From Chitinophagaceae bacterium (GTDB taxonomy: Bacteria > Bacteroidota > Bacteroidia > Chitinophagales > Chitinophagaceae), in NCBI GenBank assembly GCA_027486835.1, contig JAIXOJ010000103.1, positions 1-42,569 on the forward strand: 42,569 nt of DNA, given 5' to 3'. Each line of letters begins with the position of its first letter. The first letter of the stretch is position 1. The notes beneath the pieces were generated by a model. The model did not search any database. It saw only the letters and a list, made by a program, of their open reading frames with translations, and had not been told where the DNA came from. A program made the translations under genes and the position numbers. Below are positions 1,778 through 38,495 of the stretch, piece after piece.

Positions 1778-1924
1778 ATCGGTACAAATGTCCACCGTAA
1801 TGCTTCAAACGAGCATCCTAATGCCTCAAACGAGCATCGTAATGCTTCAAATGAGTACCGAAAAACTTCTAATGAGTACCGAAAAACTTCAAAAAAGTAT
1901 GGTAATGCTTCTAATGAGTATTGG
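1778..1924. repeat. 21-bp tandem array 1
   Basis: About seven head-to-tail units of exactly 21 bp; six clear ones start at 1799, 1820, 1841, 1862, 1883 and 1904. A representative unit is AATGCTTCAAACGAGCATCG plus one base. Units diverge by several substitutions, yet no indel breaks the phase. It is intergenic. Read as protein it gives a meaningless heptapeptide repeat. Confidence 0.85.
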
Positions 1925-3290: not shown

Positions 3291-3869
3291 ATGGAAAATA
3301 AGGTACAAAACGAAGATTGTAGGCACATAGAATTTCTGGCTATCAACTCAAAGGAGATTATTGAAAAGCAAGTGGATTCTTACCGCCAACAGCATTCCTA
3401 TGCTGGTACAATTATCGGCTTCACTGTGTTGTTTATCCCTTTTTTCTTAAATAGTTTGAATAACCCCAACAAAATATTACAGTCTATCTCCATCATTCCT
3501 ATTGCTTTATTCATTAGCTCCATCCTTATACTGTTGAGCATATTCAGAGGCAAACCGCTCGATCAGGCATTGTCTGTGACCAAATATCAGGAATTGATTA
3601 CCAAAAACTATCATGAAATATTGCTTTATGAAATAGAAGCCAACAAATGTTCCTACCTAAAAAACGATGGGTTGACCAAGAGAGCTAATAAAAGATATAT
3701 CCAAGGCGTAAGCCTTACTTCCATTGCCATTCTTATATCCATCATTTTGCTGTTAATCAACTCTTTCATGGCATTTGAAAAAGCTCCTGCCAAAATTCAG
3801 GTGATTAACCTAGGGAGCATAAAAACTTTTTCGTTTTGCCCCTCGCCTTTCGGAGAGGGGTTGGGGTGA
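3291..3869 (+). CDS. Three-helix membrane protein, C-terminus altered by element insertion
   Basis: 192 residues with three predicted membrane segments at about 37-55, 63-85 and 137-161, separated by a charged loop of about 50 residues containing ITKNYHEILLYEIEANKC. The family is not recognised. After residue L174 the frame enters a MITE at 3813, so the last 17 residues (GSIKTFSFCPSPFGEGLG-like) are encoded by mobile DNA. If the composite 3813-4640 and one copy of the 9-bp flank are removed, the frame reads on as INLSKKVA and stops at 4656-4658, giving an ancestral product of about 179 residues. The protein may still work, because the change lies beyond the last membrane helix. Confidence 0.75.
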   Translation: MENKVQNEDCRHIEFLAINSKEIIEKQVDSYRQQHSYAGTIIGFTVLFIPFFLNSLNNPNKILQSISIIPIALFISSILILLSIFRGKPLDQALSVTKYQELITKNYHEILLYEIEANKCSYLKNDGLTKRANKRYIQGVSLTSIAILISIILLLINSFMAFEKAPAKIQVINLGSIKTFSFCPSPFGEGLG

Positions 3870-3906
3870 GGTTTACCTAAAAACAGCGAGAAACTTTTAT
3901 GCACCC
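3813..3906 (+). mobile_element. MITE copy A
   Basis: 94 bp. The left end GGGAGCATAAAAACTTTTTC is the imperfect complement of the right end CGAGAAACTTTTATGCACCC. The centre is a CCCCTCGCCTTTCGGAGAGG hairpin followed by GGTTGGGGTGAGG. It supplies the stop codon of the upstream membrane protein gene. Confidence 0.85.
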
Positions 3907-4538
3907 TATTTCTGGCTTCGTAAATATTTAGATTCTTTCTTTCGTGTAATAAATTATATAATTTATTACAAACCAATAGCAGGGAGCGTTTTTATATGGC
4001 CCCCAATTTTTTTTGGGAGGAAAAATCACTCCGATTATACCCAAAGAAGCCTAAACAGGGCAAAAGGGAGCTTAGTTGCTACAAAAGGGAGCTTAGTTGC
4101 CACAAAAGGGAACTTAGTTGCCACAAAAGGGAACTTAGTTGCCACAAAAGGGAGCCTAGCAGCCTCAAAAGGGAATTTAGCAGCCTCAAAAGGGAAGTTA
4201 GCAGCCTCAAAAGGGAAGTTAGCAGTCGCAAAAGGGAAGTTAGCAGCCTCAAAAGGGAAGTTAGCAGCCTCAAAAGGAGACAGTTTGTCTTAACCAAGCG
4301 AATATATGTTATAGCTAAGGACAAAATGGCGGTTACTGGGTTTCTATTTGAATGTGCTTACTAAGCATTCGGAAGGAATTAGCAAATTGTTGAGAATGCT
4401 AAAGGATATAAGGAGGGTTTTAGTGGATTTAAGCAGTTAGCAGAACATAATTTTGACTCACCTAAGGGATAAACTTTTGAGTAGGAGTTTGATTTTGGAT
4501 AATTAAAGTAAACTAATGGTAAGTCTTAAACCCAAGTT
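3907..4538. other. Interior of the composite element
   Basis: Besides the 21-bp array, this stretch holds AT-rich, gene-free sequence on both sides (3907-4061 and 4286-4538). A short palindrome-like TAATAAATTATATAATTTATTA lies near 3946-3968 (written here with its central bases). I find no coding frame of plausible composition. Confidence 0.5.
4062..4285. repeat. 21-bp tandem array 2
   Basis: Ten complete units plus a partial, with AAAAGGGA starting at 4062, 4083, 4104 and every 21 bp to 4272. Two unit types occur in blocks: AAAAGGGAACTTAGTTGCCA first, then AAAAGGGAAGTTAGCAGCCT, each plus one base. The block structure suggests local expansion after divergence. It sits inside the composite MITE unit. 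Frames through it encode low-complexity heptads (KRELSCH) and are rejected as genes. Confidence 0.9.
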
Positions 4539-4631
4539 AGGAGCATAAAAGTTTTTCGTTTTGCCCCTCGCCTTTCGGAGAGGAGTTAGGGTGAGGGTTA
4601 ACTAAAAACTGCGAAAAACTTTTATGCACCC
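4539..4631 (+). mobile_element. MITE copy B
   Basis: 93 bp, with left end AGGAGCATAAAAGTTTTTCG and right end CGAAAAACTTTTATGCACCC. The core hairpin is almost identical to copies A and D, and the orientation is the same as copy A. Its right end abuts ATTAACCTA at 4632-4640. Confidence 0.9.
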
Positions 4632-4745
4632 ATTAACCTATCGAAAAAAGTAGCCTAGGGGCTTACGCAGTCCGCCCCTAGGAATCATTCACGCACCAAT
4701 AAATTGGAATTTAACCCTAACCTATAAAAATTTAACCCTAAAAAA

Positions 4746-6185: not shown

Positions 6186-6301
6186 GAATCATTGGGTGCA
6201 CAAAAGTTTTTCGATTTGAAGATTCATTTTAATCTTTTTGGGGTGTCAAACGCTATAAAGGTTTGCGAACAAGGCGAAAACTTTTATGCGTCCGAATCAT
6301 T
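6186..6301. mobile_element. MITE copy C with 8-bp target duplication
   Basis: The element is 6194-6293 (100 bp). It starts GGGTGCACAAAAGTTTTTCG and ends CGAAAACTTTTATGCGTCC plus one base. GAATCATT occurs directly on both sides, at 6186-6193 and 6294-6301. The core differs from copies A, B and D: the CCCCTC hairpin is replaced by unrelated sequence, so ends are conserved while the interior varies, as expected for a non-autonomous element. It lies 57 nt beyond the dehydrogenase stop. Confidence 0.88.
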
Positions 6302-27970: not shown

Positions 27971-28243
27971 CTGGATGTCATGCGCAACAGTCTGGATGTT
28001 ATGCGCAACAGTCTGGATGTCATGCGTAATAGACTGGATGTCATGTGTAATGGACTGGATGTCATGCGTAACAGTCTGGATGACATGCGTAACAGACTGG
28101 ATGTCATGCGCAACAGTCTGGATGTCATGCGTAACAGTCTGGATGTCATGCGTAACTGTCTGGAAATGTCTTGAATGAGGCTGGAAATGTCTTGAGTTAC
28201 GCTGGAAATGTCTTGAGTTACGCTGGAAATGTCTTGAAACGAG
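27971..28243. repeat. 21-bp tandem array 3
   Basis: Thirteen units whose CTGG starts fall exactly every 21 bp from 27971 to 28223. The first nine are of one type (CTGGATGTCATGCGTAACAG plus one base). The last four are a second type (CTGGAAATGTCTTGAGTTAC plus one base) in the same phase. It lies 300 bp upstream of mcrB. Frames through it on both strands encode nine-fold low-complexity heptads and are not genes. Confidence 0.92.
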
Positions 28244-34678: not shown

Positions 34679-34787
34679 AAATGGGAGGGTGCATAAAAGT
34701 TTTTCGTTTTGCCCCTCGCCTTTCGGAGAGGGGTTGGGGTGAGGTTAAACTAATAACTGCGAAAAACTTTTATGCACCCAAATGGGA
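34679..34787. mobile_element. MITE copy D with perfect ends and 8-bp target duplication
   Basis: The element is 34687-34779 (93 bp). Its ends GGGTGCATAAAAGTTTTTCG and CGAAAAACTTTTATGCACCC are exact 20-bp inverted repeats. AAATGGGA flanks it directly at 34679-34686 and 34780-34787. The core hairpin matches copies A and B closely, so this is probably the youngest insertion in the window. Confidence 0.93.
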
Positions 34788-38274: not shown

Positions 38275-38495
38275 CCGTTTCTCAACTAGTTTCACTTACT
38301 TCCCAACTAGTTCAACCTGCCTCGCCACTCATTCTCATGCTTCACAACTAGTTTCTCATGCTTCACAACTAGTTTCTCATGCTTCACAACTAGTTTCATA
38401 TGCTACGCAACTAGTCCCGCATGCTTCGCAACTAGTCCCGAATACTACGCAACTAGTCCCGCATACTTCGCCACTAGTCCCGTATGCTTCGTAGC
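38275..38495. repeat. 21-bp tandem array 4
   Basis: About ten units with CAACTAGT-type starts at 38283, 38304, 38325, 38345, 38366, 38387, 38408, 38429, 38450 and 38471; all steps are 21 bp except one of 20. Units drift from CTTCACAACTAGTTTCTCAT to CTTCGCAACTAGTCCCGCAT forms, each plus one base. It lies 170 bp upstream of purA, in the gap toward the next gene. Confidence 0.9.

Follow-up and report, generated by a model that had tools for sequence, protein, structure and literature searches.

An 819-bp unit, consisting of two MITEs and the repeat-bearing DNA between them, interrupts the 3′ end of a small membrane-protein gene in a Chitinophagaceae bacterium, and probably arrived there whole, by transposition. 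The gene lies on contig C101 of a draft genome of 6.4 Mb in 219 contigs; the whole of this contig, 42,569 nucleotides, was analysed and is referred to as the window. The best reading of the locus is that MITE A, 632 bp of cargo and MITE B would have moved together by transposition, through the outer terminal repeats of the two MITEs and with a transposase supplied in trans, most likely by a resident ISKra4-like IS with the same 20-bp ends. The target would have been the last codons of the gene, with 9 bp duplicated upon insertion, and the donor would have been lost or would lie outside the genomes sampled. Translation now continues into MITE A, and the terminal SKKVA would have given way to GSIKTFSFCPSPFGEGLG.

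Structure of the unit and its flanking duplication

In its current form the gene (3291..3869, forward strand) encodes a product of 192 amino acids, and its last 18 codons before the stop lie inside MITE A. This element (94 bp, 3813..3906, forward strand) has the outer end GGGAGCATAAAAACTTTTTCG and an inner end closing with CTTTTATGCACCC. It is followed by the cargo (632 bp, 3907..4538) and then by MITE B (93 bp, 4539..4631), which lies in the same orientation, is 92% alike over 85 nt and has a perfect terminal repeat as its outer (right) end. The 9-bp sequence ATTAACCTA abuts the outer end of MITE A (3804..3812) and again that of MITE B (4632..4640), beyond which the former 3′ end of the gene, SKKVA and the stop TAG (4641..4658, forward strand), is in frame once the unit and one ATTAACCTA are taken out. 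The initial annotation had described an 819-bp unit duplicated at its outer ends only, and this was borne out exactly, with the unit spanning 3813-4631 and neither inner end showing such a duplication. By structure the unit is thus a MITE-bounded composite, two MITEs around other DNA with a target duplication on the outside alone.

The significance of this footprint was assessed on 77 loci of the same genome, the window included, which were fetched around matches to the terminal repeat and to the arrays and do not represent the whole genome. These loci contained 57 near-full copies of the ~93-bp MITE. Leaving out A, B and two copies with too little flank, 53 single copies were compared: 21 had an exact 8- or 9-bp duplication (20 exact 8-mers and one exact 9-mer), 30 had one with at most one mismatch, and 23 had two or more mismatches. 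The duplication is therefore decayed or absent in many single copies, and the missing inner duplications of the unit are weak evidence when taken alone, because 23/53 single copies look no better. In the composite, the left flank of A and the right flank of B match at 9/9 positions, whereas MITE A mismatches its own right flank at 5/8 positions, MITE B mismatches its own left flank at 5/8, and the left flank of B mismatches the right flank of A at 7/8. When left and right flanks were taken from different single copies, at most one mismatch occurred in 9 of 2,756 pairs, and only one pair was an exact 9-mer (AATTCAATC, at L022 and L072 on two different contigs), so that an accidental exact match is rare, though not unheard of. 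Within the fetched loci there were 11 same-locus pairs of ends 300-5000 bp apart, of which the A/B unit alone gave an exact match; the left ends of A and B had been entered manually in case they escaped the ungapped scan. At 9 bp ATTAACCTA is longer than the commoner footprint of exact single-copy duplications (20 of 8 bp against one of 9 bp), yet both lengths fit, because the transposase superfamily discussed below is reported to make 8- or 9-bp duplications (PMC3942029).

Between the MITEs the cargo contains an array of 21-bp repeats, ~10.3 copies (4061..4277). Relatives of the cargo were found at four loci of the same genome only, on contigs C202, C125, C63 and C54, all with related arrays; the longest is on C202 (783-1309), 78% identical over 547 bp to cargo positions 3927..4473. 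No other copy of the whole 632-bp cargo was found in 13 genus genomes (the own genome and 12 congeners). Further copies of the 819-bp unit, for which the initial annotation had proposed to look, did not turn up either: neither a second copy nor a donor of the whole unit was found in the assembly or in the 12 congeners. Contig C202 was rejected as donor, the junctions being absent there, and the 4 kb examined on this contig revealed no MITE-family end. The cargo's left edge corresponds, as read by eye, to the opening codons of a degraded C202 ORF, which would place the inner junction of MITE A just within what was once the start of a gene. That ORF reads as a shortened paralogue from a family with a member of ~234 amino acids, which did not lead to a donor. 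An ORF running from the ATG at 3996 through the array (3996-4364) resembles a C202 ORF (L003:851-1276) throughout, with M..FW.EKSL...KRE heptads, and given this resemblance a coding origin of the array is possible.

Elsewhere in the window (1796-1921, 27971-28238 and 38279-38491) there are further 21-bp arrays whose units differ in sequence, as there are, by eye and with heptad ORFs, at L050 (970-1458); one genome combines a single 21-bp period with many different unit sequences. At L069 on contig C110 (1048-1345) a perfect terminal repeat and an array with a 41-bp unit are 9 bp apart. This was not counted as a composite, no second end being found in the 2 kb fetched.

The 3′ end of the interrupted gene

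When the flanks are joined without the unit, the gene runs through KIQVINLSKKVA to a stop at 4656-4658 and its product ends in INLSKKVA, although an open frame this short is weak evidence when taken alone. Two claims of the initial annotation hold here: removal of the unit and one 9-bp copy restores a frame ending in SKKVA at that stop, and the present protein ends in MITE-encoded residues, the last 18.

No Pfam family was detected in the protein at E≤0.001. Clear orthologues were present in 8 of 294 family genomes (the own genome being among the 294), with a weak match in two more, and a protein search of GTDB genome contigs gave 35 loci. Over the whole query their amino-acid identity is at most 76%. 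In the protein search of the 13 genus genomes, congener G006 gave a partial match of 35% containing stops. No DNA-level empty site was found in the 13 genus genomes, the 294 family genomes or the 35 loci from GTDB contigs, because no relative is close enough. Nor was the terminal repeat found at up to 4 edits in the fetched flanks of 32 of these loci (L156, L158 and L159, which are partial, being omitted).

The ending was therefore compared at the protein level. The tail was defined as the residues past the last conserved motif, P-x-K-V-Q-V and its variants, and was obtained from 27 of the 35 relatives; the other eight were partial or did not match the motif pattern, and two of these, L129 and L143, also have K at the fifth tail position. 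At this position K stands in 17/27 relatives and Q in 5/27. Two successive K residues begin here in the joined frame, and the MITE-encoded tail has no K at that point. When 71,966 stop-free continuations of 9 bases were sampled from the two strands of the window, 0.09% scored as well, a figure to be taken as a guide and not as a strict probability, since the relatives are not mutually independent. These tails support INLSKKVA and a stop as the original ending, at the protein level only. The initial annotation had proposed to look in related genomes for an empty site with this ending; the ending agrees with the relatives, and the DNA-level empty site was not found.

Past the last conserved motif the 27 relatives differ widely in tail length, from 5 to 42 residues, which speaks for a mild effect of the MITE-encoded tail. 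The new C-terminus lies in a naturally variable part of the protein, and the change was probably near-neutral. That the MITE supplies a new C-terminus, as first proposed, is correct in that it encodes the last 18 residues, but in view of this variation a meaningful replacement is not supported. One orthologue, at L042 / L141 (G159, UBA4407), has an unusual tail, GIIKMHGCMNQSALLL, for which inserted repeat DNA may be the source.

The MITE family, a resident IS and a second composite

With up to 3 mismatches allowed, the 20-bp terminal repeat is matched 296 times in the genome, while a reversed-pattern control gave 1 match. With the limit set at 2 mismatches, 10 of the 13 genus genomes, the own genome among them, contain the repeat, and G008 to G011 have 51 to 85 matches each. 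The elements qualify as MITEs by their length of 93 bp, their 20-bp ends, their many copies and their target duplications, and their ends are common to an IS of the same genome, at both ends of which the 20 bp are identical.

A tree of 57 MITE copies resolved almost nothing, with 2 starred of 50 inner branches. MITE A and MITE B pair in it (89/83, from few columns), which is only suggestive. They have two states in common, each found in 2 of the 55 other copies, and as many such rare states are common to 11 of 1,485 other MITE pairs. These states would fit a local duplication before the move, a later homogenisation or the recombination alternative considered below, and they are the weakest point in the case for movement as a unit. 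Together with the pairing in the tree they agree with duplication or gene conversion of one MITE no less than with two separate insertions.

The window holds a third 93-bp MITE (34687-34779) with its own exact 8-bp duplication, AAATGGGA. An element of ~100 bp at 6194-6293, directly downstream of an aldehyde dehydrogenase gene, has similar terminal repeats, a different interior and exact 8-bp flanks, GAATCATT. A 488-bp element at L055 (987-1475, contig C33) has ends of this MITE family; by eye, it is a MITE of the 215-bp type broken by another element with the ends AGCGTATATACAC and GTGTATATACGCT.

The IS itself lies outside the window. On contig C75 a transposase ORF stands beside a terminal repeat identical to the MITE end, while the ends of C57 and C7 carry a second terminal repeat and the 5′ end of the transposase gene. 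Since C57 overlaps the end of C75, an IS of ~1,291 bp (~1.29 kb) can be put together, spread over C75 and C57 or C7, and 7/8 bases are the same in its two outer flanks, on C57 and C75. The second ORF alone scored 184.6 bits against the NCBIfam ISKra4 model (NF033572), the best of 4 models though below the model cutoff of 205. The transposase ORF scored 110.7 bits against the ISLre2 model and 39.8 bits against Pfam UPF0236, above the cutoff of 24.3 for the latter. The two ORFs of the IS overlap at a run of nine A, where the shift reads +1/-2, homopolymer length being uncertain in a draft assembly. The transposase superfamily in question is described as having 18-39-bp ends and 8- or 9-bp duplications, and circular intermediates have been suggested for it by the authors (PMC3942029). 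Duplications and ends of the MITE copies fall within these ISKra4-family lengths (8-9 bp and 18-39 bp). The resident IS, with the same 20-bp ends, is likely the motor of the MITEs, a role that we treat as putative.

A larger composite bounded by these MITEs is probably present at two or more sites of the same genome, each with its own duplication, as judged from contig ends only (contigs C190, C199, C76, C68 and C37, which correspond to loci L079, L085, L065, L062 and L058 of G000). Contigs C37, C76 and C190 terminate alike: an outer end is separated by ~223-237 bp from an inner end of equal orientation, and the outer flanks differ. Contigs C199 and C68 both close with a MITE and, after it, 64 bp that are identical in the two. 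The outer flanks pair at 8/8 positions between C190 and C199 (AGACGAAC) and between C76 and C68 (TTGTGATG). Both pairs were spotted by eye before all end pairs were scanned, and in that scan 4 of 13,066 between-locus pairs matched as 8-bp duplications: these two, one poly-A pair, and L007/L015, which looks like two contigs covering a single locus. The exact 8-bp pairing suggests that C190 adjoins C199 and C76 adjoins C68.

No continuation of the right end beyond the 64 bp, that is, of the middle of this composite, was found in the assembly. Exactly 119 terminal bases are common to C199 and C68, and likewise to C37 and C76, which is likely the word length of the assembly. Judged by eye, the composite is bounded on the left by half of a 93-bp MITE and on the right, in one of its copies, by a complete MITE of the 215-bp type. 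In the C76/C68 copy the two outer halves, again by eye, add up to one 93-bp MITE, and this would also fit an insertion into a MITE.

Alternative explanations and comparison with known systems

We infer movement of the unit by a transposase and not by recombination, and this is preferred because the duplication is confined to the outer ends and has a length typical of the superfamily, and because the contig ends of the second composite pair. The main alternative is that a single MITE inserted first and made the 9-bp duplication, and that a circle containing the cargo and one MITE, or a donor tract of MITE, cargo and MITE, later recombined with it through MITE homology and split it into A and B. 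An identical outer-only duplication is predicted in that case, and for this reason the term direct evidence of mobilisation, used in the initial annotation, is too strong, even though movement as a unit remains the best reading. Recombination would also agree with A and B being direct repeats with two rare states in common, with the great number of single MITEs with duplications in this genome, with the cargo relative on C202 standing apart from any MITE-family end in the 4 kb examined, and with the outer halves of the C76/C68 copy. It requires, however, two independent events and a donor that was not found, and a single resident MITE is insufficient for the second composite, with its half MITE on one side and, in one copy, its 215-bp type on the other. 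We consider recombination unlikely overall, at roughly a third of the weight that we give to whole-unit transposition.

Far less credible is that A and B inserted separately and lost their own duplications, with ATTAACCTA matching by accident or through a target preference. Loss would not be unusual, given the 23/53 single copies above, one exact 9-mer did arise among the mixed pairs, and similar AATTTAACCCTAA motifs occur in the downstream region. But an exact match is that rare, the flanks of single copies show by eye no common target motif, and, as an independent point, joining the flanks brings back a tail residue that is conserved. A distinct question is whether the MITE tail is an adaptive C-terminus kept by selection. 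In its favour, 18 codons of the MITE read without a stop and the rest of the gene is intact; against this, the tail has the wide length range already noted in 27 relatives, no similar tail was seen among those from 32 loci and 8 family genomes, two sets that overlap in some contigs, and the authors who described a comparable MITE-encoded tail, that of QMITE2 in Coxiella EnhC, called its effect unclear (PMC5896051). Selection for the tail is thus highly improbable in our estimation.

Returning to transposition of the whole unit, the closest published counterparts are the TIME-COMPs, composites bounded by MITEs for one of which transposition has been demonstrated (PMC13367494). As in the present unit, two MITEs bound unrelated DNA, the duplication lies at the outermost ends and the transposase acts in trans; in the cases studied there, the ends are derived from Tn3, the duplications are of 5 or 6 bp and the cargo consists of resistance genes (PMC13367494). 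The present unit differs in its ISKra4-like ends, its 9-bp duplication (8 bp in most single copies) and its minisatellite cargo. It is not a TIME-COMP in the proper, Tn3-derived sense, with 9 bp here, 8 or 9 bp in single copies and an ISKra4-like transposase. Composite-like segments between two MITEs, as here, have also been described in Acinetobacter, for NFM2 pairs around integrons and for MITE-297, although these involve other MITEs and carry resistance integrons or, for MITE-297, a 76-kb plasmid region (PMC6382973).

BrickBuilt of Porphyromonas gingivalis resembles the unit in being a MITE-like element of the Bacteroidota with a minisatellite, of 23-nt units, between inverted ends; it is described as one element with leader and tail, always intergenic, and with IS5-family-like ends (PMC4596501). 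In the present unit, by contrast, the array is enclosed by two full MITEs, and a gene was the site of insertion. Assignment to the BrickBuilt type was rejected, the unit having two complete MITEs whose ends are common to an ISKra4-like IS. QMITE2 in enhC of Coxiella burnetii Dugway is like MITE A in lying in frame at the 3′ end of a gene and forming the C-terminus (33 residues), and differs from the whole unit in being a single MITE with no cargo (PMC5896051). ISKra4 and ISMich2, placed in p-MULT 4 of the prokaryotic Mutator superfamily, share overlapping ORFs and 8- or 9-bp duplications with the resident IS, whose +1/-2 shift at nine A is to be set against the -1 shift reported for ISMich2 (PMC3942029). 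The present case is a combination of a MITE composite, a minisatellite MITE and a MITE-encoded C-terminus, each already in print, with a different transposase family.

Among the open-access matches listed, none had the combination of ISKra4 and MITE as its title or abstract subject, and no paper joining MITE wording with Chitinophagaceae was found in the open-access literature. ISKra4 elements with MITEs seem to be sparsely described, at least in that literature and leaving aside a large insertion-sequence survey. Plant Pack-MULEs are known for capturing genes. A bacterial counterpart, in which MITE pairs driven by a prokaryotic Mutator-type transposase would time and again pick up host repeats and pieces of genes and disseminate them within this genus, is a tentative and rather doubtful extension; here the cargo joins a minisatellite not found in 12 congeners to the first codons of a degraded gene, and the same genome has a second composite, in several copies and with different cargo. 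MITE composites can be found by matching the outer flanks of terminal repeats in pairs, which even suggests which contig ends adjoin. Taken with the systems above, the unit adds an ISKra4-like, Mutator-type MITE family to the few in which MITE pairs carry other DNA.
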